A stretch of DNA of 59,836 nt from a virus: the IMG/VR virus record IMGVR_UViG_3300021376_000060, positions 1-59,836 of that record; one strand, given 5' to 3'. Below, piece by piece: positions 1-53,000 of the stretch. Under the pieces are notes generated by a model that saw nothing but the letters and a program-made list of their open reading frames with translations, did not search any database and was not told the DNA's origin. The first letter of the stretch is position 1. Each line of letters starts with the position of its first letter. The translations under genes and the position numbers were made by a program.

Positions 1-233
1 GTTCCTGGATTTTCAGTATAACGACCAGAAACTTTAGTAGGTCCTGGCAAACCAGCACCCCTAATATCACGCTCAAGTTGTCTTGAACGTGCTTTGTTTT
101 CTGATTTTGACTTATCACCTCTTTGAGCGGACATGATTGCCATGCCACCCTTTTCTGATTTTGAGCGAACTCTATTCAGAGAGGTTTCTTGAATAGAGCA
201 GCACTCTACCATAAATTCTTGGAATGTCTTCAT
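1..233 (-). CDS. Conserved phage protein, 3' part outside window
   Basis: The N-terminal 77 or so residues of a protein that runs off the left edge. It starts MKTFQEFMVECC, then becomes rich in Lys, Arg, Ser and Gln (SAQRGDKSKSENKARSRQLE), and continues into a Gly/Pro-rich stretch (GAGLPGPTKVSGRY). Its ATG overlaps the stop of the VWA-protein gene as ATGA, so the two are translationally coupled. The MKTFQEF start is common among small to medium proteins of T4-like cyanophages, but I do not know a function. No membrane segment is visible in the part present. Confidence 0.7.
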   Translation of the reverse strand, partial: MKTFQEFMVECCSIQETSLNRVRSKSEKGGMAIMSAQRGDKSKSENKARSRQLERDIRGAGLPGPTKVSGRYTENPG

Positions 234-2416
234 GCTACCAAAGAAATAAATTCCCCTAATACTTTTTTATTTAGTTTTTTAGTCTTAAGAGACTTTACAA
301 ATGCAGATTTGATTTGAGACTTAGTTGCATCTTCAGCAACTTCAAACTCAGTATCTTGAGAGAGTGCGCTTGCAGACATTCCAAAGTATGCATCATATCC
401 AGACTTAGTGATAGTAAAACTCTTCACCTTTTTCCAATCGTTTTGGATTTTTTCATAATCTTTCTCAAGTTGAGAATGATACATTTGAACAAACCGACTG
501 AAGTTACGACTTTCAAGGACACGAATACCAATAAAGTTCATAGAAGTAAACTTGTCTTTCAAATTCCTGAGAAGAACATCAGTAAACTCATGATACCCAT
601 GCCCAATTTGATAGGTTGTTCCCATTTTACGGTCACGAAGAAATGTACTCATAGGATTAATATATCCAGTTCCAAGGAATGTATTCTTTTCCCACTGGCG
701 TTTGACTTCTTTATGATAGACAAGTTGGTTTGCTTCGCCATCAGTCAGAACAATACACTGAACTTTCTGTAGTTTATTCTCTTTTTGAAACTTAGGAAGA
801 ATCTGGTGAAGAGTAATCAGTGCTTCATTCAGAGGAGTTCCCGACAAAGCAAGACGATTAGAATAAGTATATGGGGAACTATAAGTCCTACCAAAACAAT
901 AGGCAAGACACCAAATATTAAGCATCTGATGCTCAAGCACACTACCAGAAACTTTACTTGTGAGAATATTCATCATGGAGAAAGTTTCATCCACAACCAG
1001 AAGTCCATCTTTCTTTTGGTAGTGAGGAGTACGATCAGCAGAAAGATAACGATCATTCTCATAATCATACTCTCCACGACGCCACTCATTAGTGAAAGCA
1101 TAAACCTCAAAAGGAATCGAGACTTTCTTACAGAACCAAACAAGATTGAAGAGTTGTTTACAAGTATCAAGCATCACATCAGACATAGAACCACTCCAAT
1201 CCAGTACAAACACCAGACCGTGATTCTTACCATCAGGAATCACAGATACTTTCTTGAACAGGTCTTCATTATACTTATAGGTATGAAGACGAGTAGTATC
1301 AAGAACACCAGTGCGAGCAGTTGATGCACGAGCATACTGGTCTGCTGCCTTTCGACACTCAAACTCTTTTACAAGATAGTTGACTTCTTTCTGAGCAGAA
1401 GACTTGAACTTCTTAAACTCAATATCAACTTCTTTATAAAGATTTACAGGACGATATCCCTTTTCTTCTGCATGTTCGTTATGAATCTTTTGTTGGTGAT
1501 TAAAAGAATCATTAATATCTTTATGAACATCAGAGTTCTTACCAATAATAGTATCCAGATTTACTTGAGGAACTTCGATGTAAGTATTCTCATATCCATC
1601 ATTTCCAACAAGATCACGAATCTTATCTTCCAAAGATTCTGCAGTCCGAACTTCAGGTTCATCTTGGTTTGTATCAGATTTCACTGGAGTTTGATCACCC
1701 TGAGCCGTGCCACCATAAGAACCATCTGACTCATTTTCGGAAGACTTTTCACTCTCCCCATCTTGTTCGGAAGAGGAGTTATTAGTCTCCACAAAATCAC
1801 TAGCAGGAGACTGTGAATTTCCTTGAATTTCATGAGAATCAAAGTCAGCAACCTTTTGTTGTTGTTCTTGTTCTTTCTTACAATACTTGTAAAGTTCTTC
1901 TGCAGCAATCAGAGCATCCGCAAAACTTTCACATGCATCAATCAAATTGATGATTTCTTTTTCTTCTGGTTTGAAATCTAGAGTGATAAAGTTACCAACC
2001 TTAAAGTATAGATTTACACGATCAGCAAGATTAAAAGAAGAAATATCCTCATCATCAAGTTGGAAGAAATCTTCCTCATTCAGTTCTCTGTAACCGTTGA
2101 AGAAAGTCTTAGCAAGACCAGCATACTTGCGTTTCATCAGTTTCTCGATTCGAGCATCCTCAACTACATTCACAAACTGAGGAGGAACCTTTGCAGTCTC
2201 CGTCCAATCCTCATCGGGAGTGAAGAGAGCATGACCAACCTCATGACCCACCAGAAGATCATATACAAGGTTGCTTGCCTTTTCCCACAGAGGCAGAGTC
2301 AGAACACGAGTATGAACGTTGAAGCAAGCGGTGGGAACTTTCTTGTGCTCCACTACAAGGTCTTCAGTAGCCAGCAGTTTGGCAAGTTGGGACTTGATTT
2401 CGTGTTTGACTGCCAT
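230..2416 (-). CDS. HExxH metallopeptidase-like / VWA-domain protein (CobT-like architecture)
   Basis: A 728-residue protein when read from the ATG at 2416. The frame is open to a TTG at 2497, but MAVKHEIKSQLAKLL looks like the true N-terminus. A zinc-type HEVGH motif lies at residues 58-62, followed by a helical region. An acidic Ser/Glu/Asp/Gln-rich linker covers roughly residues 180-265. A VWA domain has an intact metal-site motif DWSGS at residues 406-410. The combination of metallopeptidase-like N-terminus, acidic linker and C-terminal VWA recalls CobT and DUF2201-type proteins, which work with MoxR-family AAA+ ATPases. Cyanophages often carry cobS, an ATPase of that type, but none is visible here. 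Function in the phage is unknown. The start overlaps the 3' end of the small basic gene upstream. Confidence 0.85.
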   Translation of the reverse strand: MAVKHEIKSQLAKLLATEDLVVEHKKVPTACFNVHTRVLTLPLWEKASNLVYDLLVGHEVGHALFTPDEDWTETAKVPPQFVNVVEDARIEKLMKRKYAGLAKTFFNGYRELNEEDFFQLDDEDISSFNLADRVNLYFKVGNFITLDFKPEEKEIINLIDACESFADALIAAEELYKYCKKEQEQQQKVADFDSHEIQGNSQSPASDFVETNNSSSEQDGESEKSSENESDGSYGGTAQGDQTPVKSDTNQDEPEVRTAESLEDKIRDLVGNDGYENTYIEVPQVNLDTIIGKNSDVHKDINDSFNHQQKIHNEHAEEKGYRPVNLYKEVDIEFKKFKSSAQKEVNYLVKEFECRKAADQYARASTARTGVLDTTRLHTYKYNEDLFKKVSVIPDGKNHGLVFVLDWSGSMSDVMLDTCKQLFNLVWFCKKVSIPFEVYAFTNEWRRGEYDYENDRYLSADRTPHYQKKDGLLVVDETFSMMNILTSKVSGSVLEHQMLNIWCLAYCFGRTYSSPYTYSNRLALSGTPLNEALITLHQILPKFQKENKLQKVQCIVLTDGEANQLVYHKEVKRQWEKNTFLGTGYINPMSTFLRDRKMGTTYQIGHGYHEFTDVLLRNLKDKFTSMNFIGIRVLESRNFSRFVQMYHSQLEKDYEKIQNDWKKVKSFTITKSGYDAYFGMSASALSQDTEFEVAEDATKSQIKSAFVKSLKTKKLNKKVLGEFISLVA

Positions 2417-29652: not shown

Positions 29653-32600
29653 TTAAGCAACTGCAATAACTCTTAAATCTCTCAATCTTGGTGGATATGA
29701 TTGATTAGTAGAAGTACCAATAAGTTTAATGCTAAAGTATCTGAATGATTCTAAATTATCAACAGTAAATTCATAATCTTTAAATGCAATTTCATTACTA
29801 TCAAATCCAAGAGTATCATTCTTAGTAACAAAAGTATCTGATGTTCCGTCATTATTTGCAGGATCAATTACTTGACCTGACTCTATTCTATTGGAATATC
29901 CTGGGAATGGATAGTAAATAGGATCTTCACTTGGATTAGTCGTAATAGAATATAAAGCTCTAAGATCTGCGTATGGATTAATATATGCAGATACAATCAC
30001 TCGTATAGATGTTGCTGGAATTTCTAACTGAATATTCTTTGTTGCATAAATGAAAGATGATGGATCATCTTTTAGAGTAGAAACTCTAGAATCTGTAGCA
30101 TAATCTGTTATTACATTATTAACTCTGTTTGATACTAAAATCATTCCAACACGTTCAAGATCAATAACTGGGGATAATCTAAAATCACTTGTTCTGAGAT
30201 TAAGTCTCATCTCCATAGATTTATTATCAAAGTTGTCGGTTAATTTTGTTGTTTCATTTATGCGAGATGCTACTATTCTTGGTGTAGAGAAGTAATTATC
30301 ATCATCGAGAGATAGTGGAGTAAACTCTTGATTTTCGAAAGAAATTTCAGATCCTGAAATACTAGTTCCACTTGTTGTTCTAATTTCAGCATTTAATTGA
30401 GTTTCTGGATGAACAACAGTTTGAACTATTGGTCTTGCAACTTCAAAAGCAATATTTTGAGTTGCATTAATGTTTGATCCTCCAATTGATTTTGTTGAAT
30501 TTAAATATAGTTTTGGAATACTGGTCCCAATTGTTCTATCGATTCCATTTGTGCTCATACCAACCTTTACATGGTAATAATCTAATCCAATTGGATTGCT
30601 CACTGTAGCATCTTGAAGTTGGTGAGTGGTATTAATTCTTCTTAAGGAAACTCCTCCCAACTCATACTTGTAGACAAAGGAGTTGATAGGATGAGTAAGA
30701 ACTATCGTAGAATCCACACCTCTTGTAATACCTGTTAAACTATTACCAACAACTCCAGTGTATGAAATAATCTCACTATCAATTAAAACATAACCAGGGT
30801 TAGTTGTTCCGACCCCAACATTCTCAAATGTCGAGAATGCAGTACTAAATCCAGAAGAAATTGATATAGAATCAGTAGAACTTTGTGGATACTCTAATGA
30901 AAGTTTTGCTGGTTCTACGTCCGATACCACATTAGAAATAACTACGGTATTTGTCAAAGAGTGCATTCCATGATTGCGATGATTCACCTTAATATGTAAA
31001 CCATCAGACTCTACTATTGGTGTAGATGATACAAACACTCCTCCACCATTAACTGCAGTTATTCCTGCTCCAGTAAAACTGGAATAATTTAAAGTATTTC
31101 CAAGACCAACGACAAAATCTCCTTGAACATTATCTAATATTAATTCGTTAGTTCCTGCTATACCAACAAGAGAAAGTCTTAAATTTCTTCCAAGAGAATT
31201 AATACCAATAGATGAAACTGTAAGAACATCTCCAACAGAATAACCAGTACCACCAACAGAAACTGTTGCAGCTATTGCAACACCATTTTGAATAGTAATG
31301 TTTGCCTTAGCATCCCTACCATTACCAGTTACTGAATTCAGAGAAACATCATTATAAGTTAAAGAACCGCTAGATGGCGTATATCCAATACCTGCATTAA
31401 TAATTTGAAGAGTTCCAGTTGCAGATCCCGCAGCACCAACATAAGTTCCTGTAGCATTAGAACCAAATTGTGATATTTGATTGCCTATAATTAAGTTTGA
31501 ATCAGTTAACGTTGTTCCTAAACCAACTCTAATTTTTCTAGACGCTATTTGAATAGAATCTTTAGGAAGAACTGCAATTTGTTTGTTATTCTGATTTAGT
31601 TCTGGGTTGAAGAAAGTTACTGATCCTTGCTCAGTAAACGCTGCAGAATAAAGGTTAAATTTCAAATCTTCATATTGGCTAGGAGTCCACGTTGATGCAT
31701 TTTGTGATTTAAACAAAGATCCCAACAAAGTTTGAGATGAAACAAATCTTTGAGCAGACTCTGGGCCACTTGCAGTGGTTATATCAACTTCACCTAGTCT
31801 AGAAATCCAAACATTATATTCGTTTGAATTTGAAATTATTACAATAGCATGTTCTTTGTTTCCTGGCAAATAAACAGGAGCTTGGAAATAAATTTTCGTT
31901 GGAATTGAAGCATCTTCGGAAATATTAATATCCTCAGGATAAACTATAACTTTACTGAAAGGGTAAATTTCTGATGTCGGTGTTCCCAAAGAAACAGATC
32001 TTAACTGTATTTCTATAGGAAGAACTTCATCTTTGGATTGGAAATAAAGATCGATACTAGTAACATATCTTCCTATACTATCGGAATCATTTCCTATTTT
32101 GAATGTTTGTGCCAAAGGATCTGCATATCCAAGTACCCATGGAGCAATCCAATCAAAAGTAACTGGAGGATTTGATGCCGCAGGAGAAACCCAATTATTT
32201 GGCCATCCTGGAGGTGGTGCTTGTGGCGGCGGAGCAGGAGGTGGTGGTGGTGTTCTATCAATAGTTTGAGTTGTTGTTTGTGTTATAGGTCTTGATGCTG
32301 AGATTGTAGCATTTTGAATTTCAGTATTTCTTATCGAAAGTATAGTTTCTTGGTTTTGAGTAATTAATCCGTCAGCAAAGAAATTAGTTTCAGCTAAAGA
32401 AACCAATTCTCCAGGTATTGGTGAATTTGAACTATCACTAGTCAATCTTAGTGTTTTTGTACCTGTAGTGAAACTAATGTTGGTCGTAACATTTGGATCG
32501 GGAACAAAGAATGATCCAATAACGACACCAGTAACATCGGTAATTAATCTTATATTTCTAACTACTGCTCGTGCTGCACTAGATTTTCCATTTAGAATCA

Positions 32601-35600
32601 TTCCTACAGAAATACTTCCACCAAAATTCCCTTCAGATAAATCAGATAAAGAACCTGTATCCACATTCAAAATAGTCGATGATGCAGAATAAGTAGATGG
32701 AATTATTTGAGTTTGATTGTATGGATTAAACTCAAAAATGTCACTTGGGTTTGTGATGGGACCATATCTATGATTAGGAGAAGCACATCTTGCAGTGAAT
32801 AGATCTATTGGTCTTGAAATATCTCCAGGACCCAGTAATCCTGTTATTTCTTCACCAGCACTAAAAGTTCCCTCCAACATTTCTATTTCAATAAGTTTAG
32901 GAGTGATATATTGATTTACATCTTCTCCATCAAAGAATGCATAGACTCTAGAAAATGGTCTCAGTCTCTTAGCATTAAATTCAATATTTCTAGATCTCAT
33001 AAAAGGAGATACGTCAACACTAACAACTCTATTTCCAATAGATACCTCATTATTGTAGTTTAGAGCTCTTGAGGATGTTCCTGTACGTGTAGCAGTTCCT
33101 GTCTGTGTTGTTGTAATAGTTTCAACAAAACCTCTAGTCGTACTTGATACTGATCGACCAGTCCAATTATTTTGCCAAGCACCCCAAGAAACTGGGTTCC
33201 ATCCTGCCTGAGGATCAAAATTAGATTCATCTAATTGAACATTAATAGTTGTTGTTTGGCCCTCAATACCTTCCACTGTTAAAGGTTGTAATCTTACAGG
33301 ATCTACCCAAATATCAGAAGAAGGATTTAATTCAATAGATCCATTATAAGATGTAACCAAGTATGGGGTAACATTTTCAATTCTAGTTGCAAAAGGTTGA
33401 ATTATTTCTGGGAATTCTACATAGTCTAATGTTATAATACCTTTACCAACATTTCCAGTGCCTATCCCACTTCTTCTAATATTTTCGCCAATAATATTAC
33501 TGTTTGGAGCTTCGGAATCAATAAATGCGAGGTTAGATGTTCTACTCCCAAGAAGAAGATCAATTTCAGTAGTGTATGGAGAAGGTCTTAATTCGCAATT
33601 AATTGTATCAATACTGTTTTTTACAAAACCAGTCTTATTTTGGAAAGACGTTGTGGTAAAATTATCTACAAAAATACCAGATTTAAATCTGTCCAAACCA
33701 GTTGCATCTTTTATTTGTAGATTTTTGGCATTATTTTCAAGTAATGATAGTGAAGTATAAAATTCTAAATTTTTGATTCTTGTTTCGAGACCAGAAATGT
33801 CTTGCATTCTATATCTCTTGTGGTCAATCAAAGAAATCGATGCATTTCTTAAATCGCAAAGGTATGGTGGTAAAGTAATTCTTGCAACTTCTATTCCTTC
33901 AGAAATTTCATCTGGTAATTGTGGATTTTCTGAAGGAGTTCCTTGTTTTACCAAAATAACAGGAACTCTAAAATTACTATCAGATGAATTTGATGTATTA
34001 GTTTGCGATGATAAGTATATTCTGTCTATTCTTCCAAGATAGAATGAATAATTACAAACTATATTTTCATCAGATGCTAAAACATTTAAAGACGAATTCT
34101 GATCATTATCAAAAGATCTTCCATAAAACTCAAAAGGAGATCTAGTTGCTGAGTTTGGATCAAATTGATCAACTATAGGTCTAGTATCAATTATATCTGA
34201 TGTTCTATATGAATCTATGGATTGTAAATCACAATAATCAAACTGATTGTAAGAATCTGCAATTGTAATATCTCCAGAATCAGACGTTGGAATATATGCA
34301 GATTCAAAATATATTTTTAACTTTTTGCTAGGTGCCGATACATTTTGTTTTTTGATCAATCTCGAATAATCTAAAATAGTGCTTCTTTGTCCATTATCTA
34401 CAGTGTAATTATTTTTAATATCATTAGAACCGGCAGTAATCGTATTAATTATTGCAGTGACTCCAGATTCTTTAAATGTTACACTTTCGCCTTCATTAAA
34501 GGAAAGACCATTTACACTAACATAATTGACGGAAAGTGATGTTGGTTTTTCTAAACAAACTGCAACATTTCCACTTTGAGATCCAACTATTTCTTCTCCT
34601 ATAATTATTTCGGATGTAGTTGCTGATGTTGATGAAATATTTTGTAAGATGGCGTTTGGTGGTGTAGGATCCTGTATACCTGATGATTCAAATACTGCAA
34701 ATATTTTTGTCACTTCAGAAACATTTAAGCACAATTCATCATCTTGTACTCTAGTTCCGTAAGGATAATTTCCAAACACCAATCCATCATTACTGGTTGT
34801 ATTTCCTACACCAGTATTGGTGCCAGAATAACTATAAATCGACTTATTGATAATAGTTGAGTTAACTCTATTTTTATTCTTTACTCTTGCTTTGATATTT
34901 ATTTTTTGTAGGGTTGCAATTAACCTTGCAGTTCCATTAGACTGAAGACCGTTAATTGTAAGTTCTCTTCCTCCAGAAGTAAATACAAATTGATCAGAAC
35001 TTAATGGCTCAGTGCTACCATCATTTCTAATGAGAACATATCTTTCTTCATCAAATGGTAAAAATACTTCGTTAGATAAGATTTCTGTTGGAGATACTGT
35101 CAGTGAATTTGAAGAAATGGTAACATCAAACTGCTTTCTAATAACAAGTTGAGAGTCTAAAAGATCTACCGAAGAAATATACTTTTTTCCCAATGGAGTA
35201 TATAAAGTATTATCACTGGAATTTAAAAATCTTGATTTTAAAATATTAAAATCTGATGGGTTGATACTTGTGGTTGGTAATGCACCTTCACAAATTCCTG
35301 TTACTGTTGTAACTCCTGAAATAGTAATACTTTTCTCTGATACAGAAATAATTTTAGCAAAAACAGACGTTGTTAATCCAACATTAGAGAAGGAAACCAA
35401 ATTTCCAGCAGTTGCAACCCCAACAAAAGTAAAATCTGAAGAAGTTACTGTGGAAATTCCAGATGAAACAGGTGTAATATTAACAAGACCAACATTTACT
35501 GATGAATACTGTCTTGTGTCTGCGGTAAATGTTGATGCAGATCCGACAATTCCATACAAAGATTTTACATCTCCAGTTCCATAAGATGTAATTGCAGTTG

Positions 35601-37209
35601 CAACTCTATTATTTTCTATTCCATCAAATACAAATTTTTCACCTTTTGCAAAAGTTCCTTTTGTATTATATGCAGTAATGATTCCTGAGTTATTAACATC
35701 GTATCTCAAAAATCCTTTTGCACCACTTGCTTTTCCTTTAATAAAAGTTGGAGTGGTAAGTGTGATTGGTTCATTCAGAGAAATTTCGGTATAAGTTTGA
35801 ATATCATATAGTGAAATTTCCCACTGATTTGTGTTTGGAAGAATTGAGTCGTAAGAACCAGACTCTAAAGCAAAGTCATATACTCTAGCAACTCCAATTT
35901 CTTTCCCTGTTGATGAAAATTGACTAGAACCAACTCTAGAATCTCTTAAACTAACAACATAAGTAGAAATTCCAACAGATGGAGAACCATACACTCTATT
36001 GAGAGAGTATGTTGCACCGGTAGAATATATAATGCTTTGATTATTGAGAGTTTTTGTGGTTCTTGGCTTCTCAAAGTCAGCTATTGTTGAAGATAATAGT
36101 TCTACTTCATATCCCTTAACGTATGCTTTTCCTGGAGAAATCTTATATGACCCAAGATCATCGGAAGGAACACTTCCTTGAGGTGTTAATTGATTTTCTT
36201 CAAAAATTCCATTATTACCTTTCTTATTATTAAGAGAGTTTTTAATTTCTACTTTTAATGGTTTTATATAATAATCTCCAGATTCATCATATGTTCTTCT
36301 GGCAAATTCATCAGATAATTCACTATATTGAGTATTTGTATTTTGTCTTGATATTCTTCCGTCTTGAACCCTTATCAGTTCTACAAAATTATCTGCGCTA
36401 TTATCTGTTAATAATATTTTATCCAAAATTGCTGTAATTTTAAGTCTATCCGCCCCAGGTGCAGCATAATTTGAAAATCCTTTAGCATTATCTACTAAAG
36501 ATTCGTCAATATCAGAGTTTACAATTTCTTCATAAATTCTAAGACCCACTTTATAAGTGGGCCAACTATAATTATAATCAAGTATTAATGTTTGAGAAGC
36601 TACACTAACAAATGTTCCCCTTAAGAAATACACTCCCTCAGACAGAATCACCATAGATCCTGAAATAGAAGATTCTGTGTTTATTGTAGTCGCAAATGCT
36701 TGATTTGCTTGTATTGGAGTTATTTCTGTAAATCCTGGAGATACAGTTTCCTCAACTATCAAATTTTCAGCATCACTAAAAGAACTATTGCCAGTTTCAC
36801 TAGTATTCAAATAATTTAAATATAAAATAGTATTTGTATTATTATTATTCGAATCGGTTTGTTTTAGTATATAAATTACCTTTGCCTTAACTCCAGAATC
36901 TTGGCCTATTACAACTTTATTGAGAAGATTATCAATATACCCATCTACATTCACATTATTAAATGTATTTTCTAAAACAACCGCAGGAACTTGCCTGAGA
37001 TAATTAACTCCTCCAGGAATTACAACAGATCCTTCTCGGAAAATATGATTACCAAACTGTTCAATTTGATTTTGAAGAGTTGATTGTAGTCCCGTTAATT
37101 CACGAGCCTGAACAGGATATCCTGGTTTAAATAAAACCTTGTAATAATTTTTTGCTGGATCAAAATCGTCAAAGTATGGAGAGACGTTGAGGTTAGTTTC
37201 CTGTGGCAT
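29653..37209 (-). CDS. Giant DUF4815 tail/baseplate fibre protein
   Basis: 2518 residues. The N-terminus (LNVSPYFDDFDPAKNYYKVL, then FKPGYPVQARELTGLQSTLQ and NQIEQFGNHIFREGSVVIPG) is the DUF4815 domain of phage tail fibre-like proteins. Long beta-rich regions follow. A proline-rich hinge (PPPPPAPPPQAPPPG, about residue 1655) precedes a conserved domain beginning YADPLAQTFKIG and containing KVIVYPEDINISEDASI and EHAIVIISNSNEYNVWISRL. A GIGYTP/GTGYS module and a 'LIDSEIISYTG...GITRG' module lie near residues 1940-2170. It sits between gp8 and gp13, where T4 has its gp9-12 and fibritin genes, so a baseplate-fibre role is likely. Confidence 0.9.
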   Translation of the reverse strand: MPQETNLNVSPYFDDFDPAKNYYKVLFKPGYPVQARELTGLQSTLQNQIEQFGNHIFREGSVVIPGGVNYLRQVPAVVLENTFNNVNVDGYIDNLLNKVVIGQDSGVKAKVIYILKQTDSNNNNTNTILYLNYLNTSETGNSSFSDAENLIVEETVSPGFTEITPIQANQAFATTINTESSISGSMVILSEGVYFLRGTFVSVASQTLILDYNYSWPTYKVGLRIYEEIVNSDIDESLVDNAKGFSNYAAPGADRLKITAILDKILLTDNSADNFVELIRVQDGRISRQNTNTQYSELSDEFARRTYDESGDYYIKPLKVEIKNSLNNKKGNNGIFEENQLTPQGSVPSDDLGSYKISPGKAYVKGYEVELLSSTIADFEKPRTTKTLNNQSIIYSTGATYSLNRVYGSPSVGISTYVVSLRDSRVGSSQFSSTGKEIGVARVYDFALESGSYDSILPNTNQWEISLYDIQTYTEISLNEPITLTTPTFIKGKASGAKGFLRYDVNNSGIITAYNTKGTFAKGEKFVFDGIENNRVATAITSYGTGDVKSLYGIVGSASTFTADTRQYSSVNVGLVNITPVSSGISTVTSSDFTFVGVATAGNLVSFSNVGLTTSVFAKIISVSEKSITISGVTTVTGICEGALPTTSINPSDFNILKSRFLNSSDNTLYTPLGKKYISSVDLLDSQLVIRKQFDVTISSNSLTVSPTEILSNEVFLPFDEERYVLIRNDGSTEPLSSDQFVFTSGGRELTINGLQSNGTARLIATLQKINIKARVKNKNRVNSTIINKSIYSYSGTNTGVGNTTSNDGLVFGNYPYGTRVQDDELCLNVSEVTKIFAVFESSGIQDPTPPNAILQNISSTSATTSEIIIGEEIVGSQSGNVAVCLEKPTSLSVNYVSVNGLSFNEGESVTFKESGVTAIINTITAGSNDIKNNYTVDNGQRSTILDYSRLIKKQNVSAPSKKLKIYFESAYIPTSDSGDITIADSYNQFDYCDLQSIDSYRTSDIIDTRPIVDQFDPNSATRSPFEFYGRSFDNDQNSSLNVLASDENIVCNYSFYLGRIDRIYLSSQTNTSNSSDSNFRVPVILVKQGTPSENPQLPDEISEGIEVARITLPPYLCDLRNASISLIDHKRYRMQDISGLETRIKNLEFYTSLSLLENNAKNLQIKDATGLDRFKSGIFVDNFTTTSFQNKTGFVKNSIDTINCELRPSPYTTEIDLLLGSRTSNLAFIDSEAPNSNIIGENIRRSGIGTGNVGKGIITLDYVEFPEIIQPFATRIENVTPYLVTSYNGSIELNPSSDIWVDPVRLQPLTVEGIEGQTTTINVQLDESNFDPQAGWNPVSWGAWQNNWTGRSVSSTTRGFVETITTTQTGTATRTGTSSRALNYNNEVSIGNRVVSVDVSPFMRSRNIEFNAKRLRPFSRVYAFFDGEDVNQYITPKLIEIEMLEGTFSAGEEITGLLGPGDISRPIDLFTARCASPNHRYGPITNPSDIFEFNPYNQTQIIPSTYSASSTILNVDTGSLSDLSEGNFGGSISVGMILNGKSSAARAVVRNIRLITDVTGVVIGSFFVPDPNVTTNISFTTGTKTLRLTSDSSNSPIPGELVSLAETNFFADGLITQNQETILSIRNTEIQNATISASRPITQTTTQTIDRTPPPPPAPPPQAPPPGWPNNWVSPAASNPPVTFDWIAPWVLGYADPLAQTFKIGNDSDSIGRYVTSIDLYFQSKDEVLPIEIQLRSVSLGTPTSEIYPFSKVIVYPEDINISEDASIPTKIYFQAPVYLPGNKEHAIVIISNSNEYNVWISRLGEVDITTASGPESAQRFVSSQTLLGSLFKSQNASTWTPSQYEDLKFNLYSAAFTEQGSVTFFNPELNQNNKQIAVLPKDSIQIASRKIRVGLGTTLTDSNLIIGNQISQFGSNATGTYVGAAGSATGTLQIINAGIGYTPSSGSLTYNDVSLNSVTGNGRDAKANITIQNGVAIAATVSVGGTGYSVGDVLTVSSIGINSLGRNLRLSLVGIAGTNELILDNVQGDFVVGLGNTLNYSSFTGAGITAVNGGGVFVSSTPIVESDGLHIKVNHRNHGMHSLTNTVVISNVVSDVEPAKLSLEYPQSSTDSISISSGFSTAFSTFENVGVGTTNPGYVLIDSEIISYTGVVGNSLTGITRGVDSTIVLTHPINSFVYKYELGGVSLRRINTTHQLQDATVSNPIGLDYYHVKVGMSTNGIDRTIGTSIPKLYLNSTKSIGGSNINATQNIAFEVARPIVQTVVHPETQLNAEIRTTSGTSISGSEISFENQEFTPLSLDDDNYFSTPRIVASRINETTKLTDNFDNKSMEMRLNLRTSDFRLSPVIDLERVGMILVSNRVNNVITDYATDSRVSTLKDDPSSFIYATKNIQLEIPATSIRVIVSAYINPYADLRALYSITTNPSEDPIYYPFPGYSNRIESGQVIDPANNDGTSDTFVTKNDTLGFDSNEIAFKDYEFTVDNLESFRYFSIKLIGTSTNQSYPPRLRDLRVIAVA

Positions 37210-41030: not shown

Positions 41031-41038
41031 TATTTATT
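41031..41038 (-). promoter_or_regulatory. Late-type promoter motif before the 732-residue fibre gene
   Basis: AATAAATA on the minus strand, 22 bases before the ATG at 41009, overlapping the stop of the 4028-residue gene. Confidence 0.5.
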
Positions 41039-44000
41039 AGTTGACATAGTTTTTATACTTAAGTGGGTTGAAACGAATTACACTTGCAGAAGTATTAATT
41101 CCACTAAAACCATAAGATTTAAATTCTTTCGGTTCATTTCTGGAAAGATCATAAATTCTTCCCCAACTAAATTCTCCAATATAGTTGGAAGTAGTAATAG
41201 ATCCTCCAGAATAAGTAGTAATTCCGAGATAATCCCAGGTATAATACGTGGAATCAAAGAATATTGTTGATGATCCCATTCCAATAGTGCTTATTCCAGT
41301 TGTAGGTTCTACTACTGCAAATACTCTCTTGATAACTGTTGTTCCAACTCCAACAACATTTTTGTAATGAGTTTCGATAGTATCTACTTGATAAATTCCA
41401 TCGACATATTGAGTAGAAAGTCCAATAATTGATCCATTAGTTCTATATGTGAAGAAGTTTGTAGATGATGCTCCAACATTTGAATTTTGAACAACAAAGA
41501 AGTCACCAACTTGGATCTGACTTACTGTAATTGCAGTTCCTACAACATCAGTATCTCTCAAGAACGAATCTTGTGGTATATAAAGATCAAATATGTTTTT
41601 ATCGGAACCAGAAATTGTGGATATACCATATCCAACAATAGTGCCAAAATCACCAATATAAGATACTGAATCGATTGTTTCTTTTGTAACTGCTGGTGGT
41701 TCTATTAATACTACTGGTGGATTTGATGTAGTATATCCAGTTCCGGGAGAAGAAACTACAATATTAGATACAGTGCCTGCAGAAGAAACAACAGATAATA
41801 CTGAAGCTCTTTGTGTTGATCCAAGACCAACGGGATTTTCGATTACTATTTCTGGTGGATTAGTTGAAGTGTAACCTATACCACCATTAGAAATAATAAT
41901 TGATGATATTGTTCCTGCGGCAGAAACCACAGCAGTAGCGGATGCGGCAACTAAATCGTTTTGAGAAATGATTGTAATTTTATTTTGTGGAATCTCGGAA
42001 GTTCCATCATGCAAGTACTCATCATAACTATCAAAGAAAGTTTTTACACTCTCTACCCAAATTTGTGTAGATGAGATGCTTACATTTTCAATTAAGTTTG
42101 ATGTAGGAGTAATCAATGGTTCATAAAGAATTCTATCTTTACCAACTTCCTGCCCATTAATAATCTTATCCTCAGTTTGTCTGCACCATACAACAGGTCT
42201 TGCAAAGGTCTCATCTTGACTCAATCCAGGACCTGGATATACATTAGTTTCAACAACATCAGTTGATACAACATCAGTAACTAATCTACTATCTTCCTTG
42301 AATCTTGCAATATCACTATCAATCCTTAAAGTATCACCTTCTTTAACAGTTTCGAGAATATCAACATTAAGAGTATCAACATCACCGGTTCCTCTGTAGA
42401 AGAGAATTTTAGACGTATCTCCTACTTTCGGTGCTTCTTTAAATGTAATGATGCTTCCACCATTGAAGATATATGAAACATCAGGAACTTGTAAAATATC
42501 ATTGATAAAAATCAACAGATTTGCCTTTACTTCAATATTAGACCCTCTTCTAGATCTGATAGTAGTTTGTTCTCCATTAATTTTAATTGGGAAAGTGGTT
42601 TTTTCACCATCAAATAAGGAATCTATTGGATCAATAACCTGAAGATCCCCAATTGTCCATCCAGTAAATTCATCAGTAAAGGTTTGATCTACAGTAATTT
42701 GAAACTCTTGGAGGGAAACCGATGTGTTAGTAGGAATTCCAGTAGTTCCACCAGTAGCAACAGTAAGAACTTGCCCCTGACCATAACCATATCCAGTGTT
42801 TCTAATTTCAAAGGAAATTACACTCGAACCTTGACCAACTACTATATCTGCAACAGCAGCAGTTCCAAGTCCACTTGAGGAAGAACTGTAGATAAGAGGA
42901 ATATTTGAATATGAAAGCGGATCATCAAAAATAACGATAGGTGGATTTGTTGAAGTATATCCAGTTCCTGGATTTGTAATTGCGACTCCAGTAATATGAC
43001 CATTAACAACTGTTGCAATACCAATGTATGTAATGTTTGGAATTCCAGTGCTAGAAGTTGCAATACCAACATTAACAGTTTGAATTCCAGATCTATATCC
43101 AGATCCACTGTTTCCAATACTGATGAGAGAAATTGTTCCTGCTATGGAAACTGTTGCTGTTCCGCCAGCAGAAACCAAAGGTTGATATCCAAGACCAGAA
43201 GTAGATCCAACAGAAACAATCACTCCACCAAGAGGAACATTACTTGTATTAACATCATAAGAGGTGGAAGATATTGTTCCAGTAAATGTTATAGATGTAA
43301 TTCCGGTATTTTCGGAAAGATCATAATCACCTACAATTTGAACAGATCCAACTCTTGCTGGACCTTGGAAAATATCATTAATCAAAATGATCGCATTACT
43401 CGTAGAGAATCCTGAGATATTGGATCTATTTGATTTCAATGTAAATGTATTATTTGTTCCATTAAATCCTGATGATATATCATCAAAGATGTAATTATGA
43501 GAATATGATTCAGAATCTCCATTTACAATTCCGGATCTAATAAATGATCTACCACTAAATGTAGAATGAGTTTCTATTCCAACAAAATCTCTACTATCTG
43601 GAGGGTTAGTAGTCGATCCAATAGGAGTTGGTCCATATGGAGCAGTTACAAAGTTAATTGTGTTTCCTATGATATTAAAATCACCATTAACTTTTGTGAT
43701 TGTGGAATTGATTGCATGAGTTGCAATACCAGTTCCCATCCATGCTCTTTGAACCAAGACGATATTAGTCGATCCAAATCCAACAGAATTGACCCTCATA
43801 ATTTCATCATCAACTTTAACTAAATCACCACCAAAGAAAGATGTAATTCCAGAGAAAGTCAATCTATCATCTACAATAGAAACTTCTTTTGATGCCGTTG
43901 TTGTTACTGAGGTTGCGACTATTGGAGATTGAATAAGATTATCGATTCCGATTAAAACTCTTGCATTTTGATTTGTGGAAACAAATCTATGAGAAGTTCC

Positions 44001-47000
44001 AATACCAACAGTGGTTATATCTAAGATATTTGGTGGATTGCGAAGAGCATCGGATGCGGATGCAGCCACTCTAACTTTAAGATCACTTTCTTTTACAATA
44101 TAAAGAGACGATGGTAACTTATCAGTTGATCCAACTCCACTGATTGTGGTTGTTGCAATACCAATTGCTTGTGTAGTTCCTGCTCCTGCAAAGGAGTATA
44201 TAACTTTTTCACCAGTTATAAAGAAATGTTCTGGTATTGTGATTGTATTATTAGTTACACTTACTATATCAGAATTACTTCCATCAAAATATCTTTCAAA
44301 GATTGGTTTTTGTTTGTGAGTCAGTCCAAATGCTCTCTTGACATCAGTTTCTGATCCAGTATAGAATCCATATCCAGTTCTTATAAACGCATTAGTAAAA
44401 TCTATCGTTCTATTTGCAATAGTTAGATCGACCAGACCTATAGGATTCTGATATACTCTTACTTCTACATCAGTATCTGCATTTGCGGTAAATGTAAGAT
44501 CAACATCACCAGATGGTTTTACGGTTGCTCCAATCGATCCAATAGAAGAATTGGTTTGAATGATACCAAACTCAACAAAATATGCTTCAGTATCATCATC
44601 AACCAAAACAACTTCAGAAACTTGATACTGATTGTTGGTCAAATCTTCAACACTGACAACATAGTAGGAACCTTCATATGTTGAACTATAACTTGCTATT
44701 GTTGTTATTCCTGGTGTTGGTGTTGATGAAATTGCAACATGACTAGATTCAATTCTAGTATCATTAAGTATTTCAGTTCCAATTCCCACAGAAATTGTGC
44801 TTGATATTGATACTCTTACCGAGTTTATGTCAAATTGAACTGGTGTGGATGTGTAAGGAATAAGATCGATATTAATATTAGATCCGGAATAATATGCATG
44901 ATATGTTCCCAACCCTAAAGAAGAATATGAGTCATCATTAACTGTATTTAATTGACCATATTCTTGCAAGATAATATCAGTTCCATTATGTAAAATTGTA
45001 AGTTCATCAAATTCATGATATGATGAATTAGTAGCTCCGATTTGAACTAAAACCTTAGAAGATCTGTAAGTAGATGCAATACCAACAATAGTAGTTGCAG
45101 ATGATGTTCCTGATGGTATACTAGTAGTTGCTGATCCAACAAAAACAGTATCTCCCAAGTCCGTAGAACCTATTGAAACAATAGAATCTCTTATATCAAA
45201 AGAAACAGTACTTACATCATAATCATTAATCGTCGATCTTGTTGGATAGAAAAGAAGATTTCCGTCTAGACCAGTAATACTAAAATCAAATGATCCCATA
45301 TCGTAATAACTATCAACTCCACCATATTGATTAATGTATGCAGTTGATCCATCATGAACTAAAGAAACTAAAGATACTTGTCTTTGGGAAGTAAATCTTC
45401 TATCCTTTATAAAGGTCAGATATTTAACAGACCTAGAATCTAATCTAAATGTATCAACAATACTAAATTGTGTTGATCTTGGATTGCTATTAAATTCATC
45501 ACTAATATCATCAATTAAAAGAACTCTATTTCCAATAGACTCGATATAATCTTGAAGAACACGAGATCCAAATATTATTTCATCGGATCTTACACTTCCA
45601 TCAACTATAAAATTATTTTCTGTAACTAAATCGAAATCGTAAACACAATTAAGATCTATTGAACGAGAAAGATCAGCAATTCCAGAAACATCGCCCAAAT
45701 TCTGTTCTGTATTAATTCCAGATATGGTAGGAGATGACTCTACTACCAAATCACTAAATCTCTTGAATCCTGCGGTGTGATTGAGATTAGCTACGGCATC
45801 ATCCCAAACTTCAACGGAAACTGGAGATTTAATTGCATAAGAGAAATACTGATAATAGTCATTATCATGAACTCTTTGGAATTGATTATCCAAGAATCCT
45901 GTCTCGGTTTGCCATCCCTTTACAACTGTTGAAGCAGACCCCACTATGTAGTTCGCGGTAGATGTAGTTACGTTTCCAATTATTCCACTTGATGTTGAAG
46001 TTCTGCCCGTAATAACATCACCAGAATTGAAAGTATCATTAGTGGAAACTTTTAGAATTTCATTTATATCATTCCAATCAACTACGACACCAAAAGAACC
46101 ATTAGAAGATACAGTTTCTCCTTTATTAAAGATATTCTTTTCGAGTACAATATTGAATATTGGGAACTGTTTTTGAAGAACAATTCTTCCAGAAGAATTT
46201 ACAGAATCAAAAGTTCCTGGTACTTCTCCATTAGAAAGATAGTTTGAGATATTGTATGAAACAGTAGCCCCAACACCTCCAATATTTGGATCAGTATTTA
46301 CTATAGTAAACAGAGTGTAGTTATAGTTTGATGAATTATATCCTTTTCCTGTAGAACCAACACCAACACTAGTGTTCTCAATAAGAACCTTATCTCCAAT
46401 ATTGAATGGGAAATCTGATGCGTTACTAAAACTAGAACCTAAGGTAACGACAACATCATTAGAAGAAGAAATAAATCTAATCGAACTAATTCCAACTCCA
46501 TTAGTGTTATTGACTGGAATAATAGTTGGAGTTACATTATTAATAGATTTGGTATTCTTTAAAATAGTTACCGTCTTAGAATCCAAGTTATATCTAAGAT
46601 CTACATCAGATACGACTTTATTTGTAAGTCCATCCAAAACAATAAGATCTGGTGCAATAGAATATCCTCTACCAGCAGATGCTATTCCGATAGATTTGAA
46701 TGATGCTTGTGGTGTTACCTTTATAACATTAGGAAGTTTTGCCGTAGGTCTTACCGAGTAATCGTTAGAATACCCAAATCCAATATCATCAATAGTTGTC
46801 TTAAGAACTTTTCCAATACTATTAGTAGATACTTCTAAAACTTCTCCTGAACCAAGTTCTGATGAAACATTTTCAATCTCAGGAATAGATTTTAAATTAA
46901 GTCCACCATAATTTGTGGAAATAGATTCAATCTCACCATAGGCATTTGGAGAATTGGTTACATATGTTGTTGAAGAATTTGTCGTATCATATGAAGATTT

Positions 47001-50000
47001 TTCGGGAGTATTTGATAGTATGTAAGTGAAAGATGTTGAAGTAATTCCCGATACTGTATGAGTCCCGTTGTAAACACTCTGTACAACATTAACTGCGCTG
47101 CCATCCACTACTTCATTATCTACTATAATTTCTTCCTTAACAATTGGAATAATACTCAGATTTGTTGGAGTAAGTTTATAGTATAATTTTCTTGGTGTCG
47201 AATCATTTACTCTCAAAGCAACAGTAGCATTTGTATCAATACCAACTCTTCCAGTTCTTACAACTTCTACATTATTCGAATCGGTAAATTCAAATGGGAA
47301 GTTGAAATTGGGATCAGTGTAAAAATCAAAGTCAAATGCGGAATAAAGGATTCCGCTGTTAGTAAATGAAAGTGTGGGACTTGATACGTCGAATAATAAA
47401 GTATTTTTGGTTGTTAGATTAATAGATGGATTTACTGGTGAAATTGATCCATCCGATGCCGATGTTATGTTTATTTCGTTTCTTTCTACTCTGGAGGAAT
47501 AATAGTAACTGTTTGAAAGTTTGATAGTATTCTTATCAACTACGATTACATAATAAATTTCTTCGTTGGAAAGTCCTCCAGATGGTGATGATGAAGTATA
47601 GATTACCTTTTGGCTTGTGTATAATCCATGATTTGGTATCGTTATTGTATTTCTTGCAGTATCAACTGCAGAAGATAAGAAATCTAATTTATTGATAATT
47701 AATCTTCTGTTATAATCATTATAAGAAACTGAAATTTGAGTAGAAATTCCAGAAACAACATTTAAGGTAACAGAATCGCCTAATGCAAGTCCGTGAGTTG
47801 ATGCGGTGGAAACGGTTGCTTGATTCTTTGAAATATTACCAGTTAAAATATTTTCATAATTTGTGGTAAAACTGTGAATTTCTCCACTACCAGCACCAGT
47901 AAAATATAGAAGATCTGAAGCCGTTGATATTCCTGCATAATAACCAGTTGTACCAAGTCCAACTCGATAGGAACTGATACCAATTAAATCAGAAGTCAAT
48001 CTGGTTGCATAAACAACAGAATTATCTGATAATTGATACGATGAAACTCCATCCGTTGAAATGGATATTTGAGTTCCTCCATTTGAAGAGTAAATTAACT
48101 CATCTCCAGATATCAATTGATGATTTGGAAGATAAATTGATCTTGTAGGAATAGAAATCTGAGTAGCACCAACTCCAGGATTTGAGAATGTGAGTGTAGT
48201 TGCAACTCCAGGACCAGAAGTGGTTCCTATTCCCAAAGATTCCGATGGATTGAAATAAAATTCAGTATTTAATTTATAGTCATAGTTATTTTCAATATCC
48301 AAATTGATGAATAATTTTCTAGTAACCTCAGTAATTGCAATACCTACGGAATATGTGCTAATTCCTGATATTTCTCCAATATTTCTAAGAACTCGTACTC
48401 TTGATGACTCCGAATCTACATTTAATATCTTTACTCTTTCATCAAGAACTTGATAAATGTCATTTTCTTTTATAAAGATCTCTGAAAGATTTCCAATTAC
48501 ATTAAAGTAGGTTACTAAACCAGTATATCCAGTAGATCCAATTCCAGTGGATACGATTAAACTGTTTATACTATTTGAAATAGTATCTACCCGAGGATTC
48601 TCAAAATCAGATGTAAATGTTACAGTATCTCTATTATTGAAATAGTGAGGTGTAGTTGAAAATGCAACATATCCATTTGAAGATGGATAAAATTCTAAGT
48701 TCGTTAACTCTGATGAAGCTACACTAACAGAACTTACTGATTTTCCTTTAATTAACGAAACACTAGCTACTGGTTTTTTTGATGAAAGATCTACCTCTTT
48801 AAAAATAATCTTATCGCCAACTTGGTAATTGATTCCTCCAGTCAGAATACCAACCGAATTTATGGTGCCACTTGATACTGACTTTACATGAGAGACTTGC
48901 TCTCTAACTTTGTTTGGATCATATAAGAATCGATAACCACTATTAGAATTTGTAATATTATATGGTGTAGTATTACGAATCCAATTAGTTTCATTAATAT
49001 TAATGTCTTCTTGGTTGGAAGATTTTAAGAAATTGAATGTTTCTGGTTTTGATTTGTAGGTGTTTCCGATAAAGTATGGGAATACTGGTGATTTATAATT
49101 TCTAAAAACTCCTACCGAATCTATCTGGCCAGAACTAATAGTAGTGAAATATGCATAAACACCATTAGGATACTCTGGAGTTATGCAGAATCTTCCATTA
49201 TTTTCATCGAGATCTCCATCACCAATAAACTCATAATCCTCAACAAAAAATCCAGCAGGGTACAGTGTAGTACTTGGTCTGTTTGGTTGAAGATTTAATT
49301 TGTAACCAGAGACCATAGATCTAATAGATCCTCCAGTAATTGATGAATATCCATATGGACCATAAATTGGATTTCCATCATAAGCCCATCCGATAATAGG
49401 AGAGTGTGCACTTGATGTTACTTCCTTACCATTAATTACTTGTAAATCTGGTTGATAAAAAATCTGACCGTTTCTATATCTTGTTCCAAGAACTGAAGAT
49501 CTTAATTTTCTTGGAGAATAAAGATGGAAATACTGAAGACCGAACCCAGAGAAACTATCTCCCAATACACCATCATCATCGATGATTTGATTGGTTTGTA
49601 AAAATCTTTCAAACAAGTTAACATTCCAAGATTTGATACTGCACTCAAATTTTGCCGATAACCCTGCAGCCGTTACTTCAATAATAGTATCAGAATCCAA
49701 ATATCCCAATCCACCAAAAACTATAGTTACGGATGTTATAGTTCCATTTGAAATTATTGGAGTCAATAATGCACCAGATCCACTTCCACTAACAGTTATG
49801 TTTGGTGGTGAGTTGTAATTTGTTCCTGGATCATTAATAATAACATCAACAATAGAACCATTATTAATTACGGGAGTTAGTTGAGCACCACTTCCATTTA
49901 AAAGTAAAAATTCTGGTTGTCTATTGTAATTTAAAATATCATCAGATCCAAAATTATTTCCACCACTTTGGACATGGACAGATTCAATACTTCCTCTAAA

Positions 50001-53000
50001 AACTGGTTGAAGAGTTGCATTAAAATCTTGGCCTGTTAACGTCGAAACACCTATTGCCCCAGATACAGTTACCGTTATTGGTTCATAATTAAAAATATGA
50101 ATACCACTTCCAACACTTATAAGATCTACATAATTTTTGGTGATATAATTTAAGTTGATTGGTTGTGTTGTGGAGGTTCCAACCAAAGATAATTTAAAAC
50201 TATCATCATCAATTTTAGTTACATAGTATGTTGAAGTTGATAATAATCCTACTACAGGGCTTTCGGTAAAATCGTAAGTTAAAACTTCTCCATTCTGATA
50301 TCCATGATTTTGGATATTAATAATGTTAGAAGCAGTGTTGATTCCTGATACTGTAGAGGTTCTCTTTTTGTTTTCGTAATTAGAACCTGGATTTATTACT
50401 GTAATTGATCCAATTTTTCTTTTCTTATTGGAAGATTTAAATCTTTGAATTCCACTTCCATTATTTACAAGAGAAACCGTATTTACTCCAAGAATGCTAT
50501 CAGAGTACGTAGAATGAAGTTTGATGCTGTTAGAGTCGATTACAGATACGAAATACGAAGAATTTGTGGATAATCCACCAACAACAGTTTGTCCCTGAGG
50601 ATCATATACAACCTGTTCATAATCTCTAAACTTATGATCTTCAATAAATGAGATTTCTCCTGTAGTTGCATTTATTGCGCCAGAAGTTGATCTTGCGTTG
50701 AAGGACACATAGTGATCAAAAGATACTAAATTAGACTTTGCTTCTGCTAAAGAACCATTACCACCAGAAATTCTGATTCTTGGTTCTTCTATATAATCAA
50801 ATCCACCATCTATAACGTCTATTCTTTCTAAACTTCCCTTTACATTACAGTAAGCAGTCGCACCAGAACCTACAGCATCCGAAACCTGAAGGACGGGGGG
50901 ATTAATTACATCATAATCAGAACCAGTTGATGTTACTGAGATCTCTTCAATTGGTCCATAAAAAACATTATTTTCAGATTTGTAATTTAGTACTTCGACA
51001 CCATTTACAAGAACACCAATTGCTCCAGGCAAAGTTTGGAATTCTTTTTCATCATCCACCGGATCAGATATTTTTCTAATTAACTTCTGTGGTTCAAGTT
51101 GTTTTGTTTCTAAGGAATCTGAAACAAAAGAAGAAAATTCTAACTTATTATTAGAGACAGTTCCAGATACAGATACAACTTTGTTTGCATAGAGATTTGC
51201 TCTACTTTTTGCTAACTGTATTGTTGAACTATCAACTTTTCTTACAAAATAAAATCCATCATCTATTCCAAGGTTGTTGCCTGCACCATTAGACCTATAA
51301 TAAACACCATCTCCCGTGTAGAATGGATGATTTGTAATCGTTAAATTAGTTCCACTAAAACTTCCAGAAAAAGTTACTGATCTGTCGTTTACTGTTATCT
51401 TTTGATCAAGATAAGTTGGTAATGATGGAGATGCGATATATAAAGATCTCTCCTTATCCGAATAAACATTCTGTACATTTGTTGTGTACTTATTGAGAGT
51501 AGGGTAATTGCTAGAATCAAATCTAGACAAAACTTTACTTACATCATAAACTTGAGATGGACTTAAAGAACCTTGACCTGAAACTGCAATTGACTTTTGA
51601 TTTCTGTAAGAGATCACAACACCAAAAACTTCTGTTCCGGGTCTTCCAAATGAAGGAAGTATAGAAACTCTATCTCCGATTACAAAGGAGTGGTCATCGT
51701 AAAAATTAATGGCATATGAATTATTCGACGAATCGAGTAATTCGACTGATTTTGTTGTATATGTTGTTGATACGTTAAAAAACCAGTTGTTGAATTTATA
51801 ATCTTCTAAACTATCACCAAGTGTTTTTATTTTAATCGGATCACCTGCAGAAAAAGAGCTATTCTGATTCTGAAGTACAATATCAGATAATACACCGGTT
51901 ACTCTAAACGTTACAACTCCTTGAGAATCATCATACCCATAGGCATATACATTTGATTTGATTTCAGTTCCACTTGGAATTTCTTGAGTAATTCCTGTAC
52001 AATTTAAAAACTGGGTAAGAGTTTTATCTGTGTATGTTATCGTAATCTGAGATCCATTTTCCAGATCTACAATTAACTCTCCAGATTGTGGAAATCCAAC
52101 TGTAGAATCTACATCGAGTGAAGTAAAATTAGGAGTAAATCCACCAACACTGGAATCTGTATCTCTAATATCAGTGATCAATAAAGTTTTTGGATGAATC
52201 GAAAATTCGCCAAAAACTGTTCCATCAACATCAATATCTCTATCATATCCAATATCTAAACTAAGAACATAATAATCTTTTTCTGCTCTTTGAATTCTTT
52301 CTACCTGAGTTACAGTTCCTCTTGCTCTGGGTAGAAAAGAATTTTCATCCTGATAAACAGTTCTGTTAACTAATTGATTTATATCTCCATTTATAGATTC
52401 GACAACCAAATCCTTAGTCACTCTATATTGAGCATCAGATGGTTGAATCAAATAATCTTGTGGTCTTATAACTGTAACATCTTTGCCATACAAAGCCCTG
52501 AATAAAATTTCAAAAGAACCTTCAGTTCCTTTTGATGAATAGAAATCTACTGCCTGCTTAATAAAGAGACCATCATTTAAACCAGTAAAAAGTGTTCTGT
52601 CTTCAAACCCTGGAGTTACTTGAGTCTTTAATTTTGTAAAGAATTTTTGAAGGAAAAGAATACTGAGGTTTTTTACAGTCGCCGACGAACTATGTTCCTG
52701 TACGGCAGAATCAGTAAAAACAAGTTCGTCGGGATTTAATGAATTATCTAAAGATGTTGTCCCACTAAAACCCCTAATACATCCAGTAAAAGAGGTTGCA
52801 GTTTTTCCGGTATATGTTATGATCTCTGAATCAATTAAAAGAAGACCGTAAGAATCTGGAAATCCAGCAGTAGAGGCTACGTTAATGATAGTATCAAAAA
52901 AAGATACGTTAGATGTGAGAGTAGTAGAATCGATTAAATTCGATAACGTATCTACTTTTACATACTGATCTAAGTTAGATGCTAAATCATATACTGATCC

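Follow-up and report, generated by a model that had tools for sequence, protein, structure and literature searches.

Here we analysed a stretch of viral DNA of 59,836 nucleotides (nt; IMG/VR record IMGVR_UViG_3300021376_000060, positions 1 to 59,836), hereafter the window, and in particular a CobT-like protein of 728 amino acids (aa) encoded at one end of it on the minus strand (233–2416, with the ATG at 2416 and the stop codon at 230–232). We propose, with a probability of roughly two in three, that this protein and the phage AAA+ protein CobS constitute an ATP-driven protein-remodelling, perhaps protein-cutting, machine rather than an enzyme of vitamin B12 synthesis. The proposal builds on five computed results, namely the motifs of the protein, their conservation, a homology bridge to bacterial CobT, the pairing with cobS and the fold class of the VWA domain. 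An initial annotation of the sequence had likened the protein to CobT and had suggested that the pair acts on a target other than cobalt, such as host protein complexes.

The layout described there, with HEVGH followed by an acidic linker and a C-terminal VWA domain with an intact metal site, was borne out, and all five positions of the metal-ion-dependent adhesion site (MIDAS) are present. The N-terminal domain (residues 5–195, positions 1832–2404; this and all further features of the gene lie on the minus strand) appears zincin-like, with a helix, three strands, the HExxH helix, an ExxR helix and further helices, and is related to Pfam CobT (PF06213) via a family of phage-plasmids. HEVGH, located by sequence and alignment, occupies residues 58–62 (2231–2245). 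The subsequent NVVEDARIE (residues 83–91, 2144–2170), which aligns with NALEDVFIE of phage-plasmid CobT, contains E86, the putative third zinc ligand according to the conserved zincin pattern of HExxH plus a downstream acid. The linker (residues 196–256, 1649–1831) is disordered in the model, holds 15 D/E and 2 K/R in its 61 residues and shows the lowest conservation in the protein (mean 0.26). It is followed by the pre-VWA segment (residues 345–397, 1226–1384), which contains TGVLDTTRLHTYKYNEDLFKK, by the VWA domain (residues 398–646, 479–1225) and by a C-terminal tail (residues 687–728, 233–358). Within the VWA domain, the alignment places the MIDAS residues at DWSGS (406–410, 1187–1201), T527 (836–838) and D559 (740–742). 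The protein matched phrog_459 (‘peptidase’) with an E-value of 7.3e-267 over profile positions 2–736 of 736, and no Pfam family reached the cut-off, VWA_2 remaining sub-threshold at E 0.076. Mechanically, a TTG-initiated extension of the open reading frame (ORF) to position 2497 exists.

An HExxH motif occurred by chance in 795 of 20,000 shuffles of the window protein; a single such motif is weak evidence by itself, and it is conservation that carries weight. Reading 61 diverse viral relatives at full length, we found both HExxH and the downstream EDxRx[E/D] intact in every one. In an alignment of 51 sequences, reaching down to 27% identity with the window protein, H58, E59, H62, N83, E86, D87 and R89 were invariant, as were the MIDAS residues D406, S408, S410, T527 and D559. 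A scripted scan of viral loci recovered HExxH in 135 of 145; six of the ten negatives are N-terminally cut or broken (L101, L102, L104, L112, L116 and L152), and for the other four (L114, L115, L127 and L128) no ORF was extracted. Genes of the phrog_459 type were present in 463 of 50,697 phage records, nearly all from cyanophages, the remainder being assigned to phages of Pelagibacter (3), Ochrobactrum, Stenotrophomonas and Pseudoalteromonas (1 each). Compared with Pfam zinc-peptidase families, the N-domain gave weak, sub-threshold matches only, and in a fold search with the whole model the VWA domain dominated the match list.

The CobT relationship suggested initially found support by way of a bridging family and is, on sequence profiles, real but remote. 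Neither Pfam CobT (PF06213) nor CobT_C (PF11775) was matched directly by the window protein, and we therefore file it as CobT-like and not as cobaltochelatase CobT. The bridge consists of CobT proteins from SSU5-type phage-plasmids of E. coli, Klebsiella and Salmonella, which keep HEVAH. The bridge protein matches CobT at 8.8e-27 and CobT_C at 3.3e-82, and its alignment to bacterial CobT spans the whole protein (prob 99.9). On the other side, the cyanophage N-domain aligns with phage-plasmid CobT at prob 98.0 (E 1.8e-13), placing HEVGH on HEVAH and NVVEDARIE on NALEDVFIE. The VWA and pre-VWA region reaches the bridge more weakly (prob 79, E 1.6e-5). Since the bacterial N-domain alone falls to prob 21 against the bridge (E 0.001), it is chiefly the VWA half that carries the full-length match between bridge and CobT. 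In the predicted N-domains of cyanophage and bacterial CobT, helices and strands follow one another in nearly the same order. In a search of modelled viral proteins, both models aligned along most of their length to A0A8S5PAI4, a phage ‘cobalamin biosynthesis protein’ (E 4.6e-14 and 1.9e-16). The direct structural match of the bacterial CobT model to a cyanophage ‘Peptidase’ fragment (H8ZNC8) gave E 0.092 and prob 0.30. In the bacterial CobT model, the VWA part is poor (mean predicted local distance difference test score, pLDDT, 65.7), and its VIA list parts NorD and midasin from other VWA domains only slightly. Solved CobT structures were matched by sequence (9uka and others); our literature search found no publication describing them.

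In the chromosomal CobT proteins of Alphaproteobacteria, HExxH was absent from all 60 sequences extracted, these being the ones among 80 loci that passed a script filter for an ExAR[VI]E-type pattern, which left 20 loci without an extracted protein. The bacterial counterpart of the phage helix GHEVGHALF is ACHDxxxHxxxxP, and AVEQARVE stands in place of NVVEDARIE. From 20 further alphaproteobacterial loci, of which 19 had been picked because their Pfam scores were weak and one was ordinary, ten proteins were extracted, nine of which lack HExxH. The tenth (L281, G146:C30) lies in a genome with a normal CobT and is a second, phage-plasmid-like copy, possibly derived from a prophage or plasmid; it carries HEAAH and NILEDWRIE and has an AAA gene next to it. 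The simplest reading of these alignments, in our view, is that the N-domain of CobT is built on a zincin-like fold, the site of which was degraded in the chelatase branch but persists in the majority of phage branches. The absence of HExxH from chromosomal CobT, the main difference, was not remarked on in the initial annotation. In the open-licence literature we found nothing that links CobT to zincins or metallopeptidases.

The pairing of CobT with CobS is firm. No AAA_5 gene was found in the window record, which is a fragment ending right after the CobT-like gene and is uninformative on this point for the phage as a whole. In the nearest named relatives, Bellamy and S-SRM01, CobS lies one gene downstream of CobT, and it is also found downstream in Pelagibacter phage HTVC008M and Ochrobactrum phage OC. 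An AAA+ (AAA_5) gene adjoining a VWA gene, as in MoxR AAA+/VWA systems, is thus seen in the relatives, while the window ends before the site. CobS follows CobT in 76 of 80 near contigs, and the remaining four end within 330 nt. Among 205 loci fetched by CobT, CobS was visible in the same stretch in 181; 14 of the other 24 end within about 540 nt of the gene. The last ten, with 1.3–3 kb of room downstream, were followed through their whole records, where CobS was located elsewhere in eight and was not found in two, which are fragments of 10.4 kb and 4.7 kb. In one 136-kb record (L124/G200), both genes are retained some 28 kb apart. Conversely, when 80 loci were retrieved with CobS, CobT was visible in 74. 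For the remaining six, the sequence starts within 430 nt in five, and in one (L418) 1.8 kb is available upstream. Among the 50,697 phage records, compared by group totals, either gene gave the same counts for records named Synechococcus (365), Cyanophage (61) and Prochlorococcus (24). The proposed partnership with CobS is supported by this near-strict co-occurrence, to which most exceptions are contig ends; phages keeping one gene without the other as a rule, which the initial annotation had named as grounds for refutation, did not appear in these counts. One scan of viral contigs with the Ochrobactrum phage CobT as query found no relative, and the S-ShM2 query found six only.

The AlphaFold2 model of the window protein (mean pLDDT 78.6) places its VWA domain nearest to those of midasin and NorD. 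The nine best rows of its VIA list are MIDAS domains of midasin/Rea1 (Z 17.5, 16.6, 15.8 and 14.1) and VWA domains of NorD (15.9, 15.6, 15.4, 15.3 and 14.0). Generic VWA domains follow from Z 13.1 downwards, and a further NorD state is interspersed at 12.4. In model comparison, the domain therefore fits the VWA partners of MoxR-clade AAA+ proteins better than other VWA domains. According to the accessible part of PMC13036017, NorD holds the NorQ ring by a finger (residues 403–448) and by its extreme C-terminus, and ATP drives twisting of the VWA domain. In the window protein, residues 345–397 form the best conserved long stretch (0.75 versus 0.49 for the VWA domain) and yet are mostly predicted with low confidence, and the same holds for the tail (conservation 0.64, pLDDT about 57–66). 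Because both segments are conserved yet not resolved in the protein alone, a role in partner binding is suggested, and by analogy to the NorQD structure they may correspond to the finger and C-terminus of NorD.

From these results we infer complex formation, the roles of finger and tail, zinc binding, proteolysis and a type of client as follows. The window protein would act as the VWA partner of phage CobS, a MoxR-type AAA+ ATPase expected to assemble into a ring. The pre-VWA finger, possibly inserted into the AAA+ pore, and the C-terminal tail as a second AAA+ contact would dock the VWA domain onto this ring. A client protein would be held by the MIDAS metal site, the linker or the N-domain, and ATP-driven motion would pull or twist it. 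With the zinc-peptidase-type site kept in the N-domain, unlike in cobaltochelatase CobT, the client is probably also cut or tightly bound. The likeliest client would be a phage or host protein of replication or recombination, or else a virion precursor, and not a cobalt-corrinoid enzyme.

An opposing view, held by Liu et al. 2021 (PMC8651126) in the accessible part of the paper, regards phage CobST as a cobaltochelatase helper that works with host CobN and raises cobalamin during infection. It can draw on the true CobT homology through the bridge and on the positive association of CobT with CobN in Alphaproteobacteria (odds ratio 22), which a chelatase role predicts where CobN exists. The cyanobacterium S. 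elongatus, moreover, encodes a PF02514 protein, though this family takes in the magnesium chelatase subunit ChlH as well as CobN. A chelatase role may still apply to the cyanophages themselves, whose hosts make corrinoids. Cobalt chelation as a general function of the family is nevertheless unlikely, because E. coli, whose control genome lacks CobN (PF02514), is a host of bridge-type phages, K-12 MG1655 being the strain infected by one of them, and because many genomes with CobT have no CobN match. Of 192 alphaproteobacterial genomes, CobT was detected in 150 and CobN in 81, with both in 79, CobT only in 71, CobN only in 2 and neither in 40; since completeness of at least 90% was requested but the completeness values were empty, some CobN absences may be assembly gaps. 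A weak fragment matching CobN in G105 (1.0e-15) was scored as present. The Caulobacter control genome likewise gave a CobT match and no PF02514 match. Adjacent cobS and cobT without a CobN match were also observed in Bartonella vinsonii and Candidatus Bartonella washoeensis (L220, L226; G002, G003). CobN is almost never phage-borne, with 2 of the 50,697 records containing it and neither of them a cyanophage, and the N-domain differs from that of CobT at the HExxH site. In addition, Bellamy and S-SRM01 carry a ribonucleotide reductase of the NrdA/NrdB type, which belongs to class Ia and does not depend on B12. For the family at large, the CobN absences thus favour a role other than cobalt chelation, as the initial annotation had supposed, and we consider the helper model improbable.

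If the pair remodels proteins, its neighbourhood may hint at which ones. In cyanophages, gp47/gp46 and then the clamp genes gp45/gp44 lie beside the CobT/CobS pair. Outside the group of T4-like cyanophages, HTVC008M and OC, we examined nine pairs (E. coli pHH12, SSU5, RHEph10, ZY21, an Acinetobacter plasmid, the ICP2-like phage JSF27, CRP-810, GMA3 and XG4). Replication genes (for primase, helicase, ligase, dnaE or polA) lie close to six of them. A dnaE gene is seen in the E. coli and Acinetobacter elements, accompanied by ligase in SSU5, by ligase and a sigma factor in RHEph10 and by primase and ligase in ZY21, and JSF27 has helicase and polA. In the stretches read, no clear replication gene was seen for CRP-810, which has the repair endonuclease V only, or for GMA3, and the stretch of XG4 is unannotated. 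As gene order suggests, a replication or recombination protein would be the first-choice client, with virion assembly as the main alternative; a phage target in replication or recombination seems at least as well indicated by these neighbours as the host complexes proposed initially. Since the hosts differ as much as Prochlorococcus and E. coli, the client may be phage-encoded or universal. The alternative, in which the pair serves as virion-assembly chaperone and maturation peptidase for structural proteins, follows the account of group 2.2 jumbo phages in the accessible text of Iyer et al. 2021 (PMC7824862), where the same architecture of MoxR AAA+ and metallopeptidase-VWA is described, and head and tail genes do lie within some kilobases of the window gene. 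We consider it improbable, given the replication genes near six of the nine pairs and the fact that in none of eight annotated stretches was the pair inside a head or tail cluster; the available text of the S-SM1 virion proteome, Table S8 aside, does not name the protein either. Somewhat less improbable, though still unlikely, is that the N-domain is a dead zincin scaffold in phages too, with HExxH kept for folding or for metal-dependent client binding, so that the machine only remodels. Bacterial CobT and the proteins of Pseudomonas phage ZY21 and the Acinetobacter plasmid lack the motif and yet retain the pair, and the nearly identical order of predicted helices and strands in the N-domains of both families fits a scaffold as well; however, structure alone rarely demands that the glutamate and both histidines stay intact in 61 of 61 diverse phage sequences.

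Several observations weigh against a remodelling peptidase that works outside B12 synthesis. Besides the CobT–CobN association mentioned above, the loss of HExxH in the ZY21 and Acinetobacter members implies that catalysis is not required for the pair everywhere, and a search with the N-domain sequence profile gave no match to solved zincins. Direct profile comparison of the window family with alphaproteobacterial CobT was not significant (prob 3.9), and neither was that of the VWA domain with its counterpart in bacterial CobT. The relatedness of the VWA domain to CobT-type proteins, on which the initial annotation had staked its case, is supported through the bridge and not by direct comparison. 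Next to two distant CobS-like AAA genes, no CobT could be recognised, and the replication neighbours could reflect early timing only. A broader version of the remodelling proposal goes further: CobS/CobT would at root be a peptidase of mobile elements and Alphaproteobacteria that remodels proteins with the energy of ATP and is unrelated to B12, with CobN-dependent chelation as a later, secondary role in the branch whose zinc site decayed; the ancestral, zinc-bearing phage form would act on a replication or recombination protein, and ‘cobS as B12 auxiliary metabolic gene’ would be a misannotation. We put this version forward tentatively, as a possibility rather than as our expectation.

Parts of this picture have been described before. 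In their accessible sections, PMC3037559 names cobS a defining core gene of marine T4-like cyanophages, and phage papers treat it as a B12 auxiliary metabolic gene. The CobS–CobT pairing itself was published by Liu et al. 2021 (PMC8651126), who place cobST in the cyanophage core and call the ‘peptidase’ label a mistake; the window gene is a member of this phage CobT family (PHROG 459), paired with CobS (PHROG 249) in T4-like cyanophages. In the accessible part of that paper, the two proteins are read as cobaltochelatase subunits and HExxH goes unmentioned, whereas our data speak for a role other than chelation and suggest that the label is not simply wrong. A pair of MoxR and metallopeptidase-VWA proteins in other jumbo phages is likewise already published (PMC7824862), with the same architecture and partner class, a likeness by description and not by comparison with ASV44728. 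As far as the available text goes, that statement concerns group 2.2, while the cyanophages and vB_OspM_OC are placed in group 2.1, and CobT is unmentioned. Cobaltochelatase CobT (PF06213 plus PF11775) shares with the window protein the order of N-domain, acidic linker, pre-VWA motif and VWA domain as well as an adjoining AAA+ partner; it differs by its CHDxxxH-like sequence in place of HExxH, and the window protein falls short of a match to Pfam CobT. NorQ/NorD and midasin (Rea1/MDN1) offer the nearest VWA structures and share the MIDAS and the logic of an AAA+ ring with a VWA partner, but differ in their clients, and no zincin domain is described for NorD in the sources at hand. As far as our literature searches go, what appears to be new is the bridge that joins CobT to the cyanophage peptidase, the proposed decay of the zinc site in the branch of the chelatases, the number of genomes with CobT and without CobN, and the docking model.

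The window derives from a T4-like cyanophage. Neighbour annotation identifies genes of the gp46/gp47 type (SbcC/SbcD), a late sigma factor, a helicase, tail tube, scaffold, portal and sheath. Two very long ORFs are located on the minus strand at 41037–53123 (4028 aa) and 29653–37209 (2518 aa). A further minus-strand ORF (1–233, starting with MKTFQEFM) overlaps the CobT stop codon and leaves the contig, with cobS expected just beyond, judging from the relatives; the corresponding position in Bellamy is occupied by another small gene. In Pseudoalteromonas phage XG4 (L091, 3851–6108), the VWA and HEVSH domains are split between two overlapping ORFs whose order is reversed, the VWA ORF coming first, which suggests that the two halves of the protein are separable. 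AAA genes of a Salmonella island (L086) and a Kayvirus (L089) are distant relatives of CobS (about 25–28%), with neighbours that lack HExxH and MIDAS. The Kayvirus (Staphylococcus) and IncC-type AAA genes were dropped as members, their neighbours (281 and 302 aa) showing neither motif by pattern; IncC is what we take to be the plasmid type of the island harbouring the 302-aa neighbour.

Should the pair indeed be a remodelling peptidase, the ecological reading of cobS in terms of B12 would be wrong. A conserved machine would then exist in phages of cyanobacteria, Pelagibacter, E. coli, Vibrio, Rhizobium and others that has gone unrecognised as one system. The proposal would also offer an origin for the N-terminal domain of CobT, and it raises a sharp question for those Alphaproteobacteria that retain CobST without CobN.

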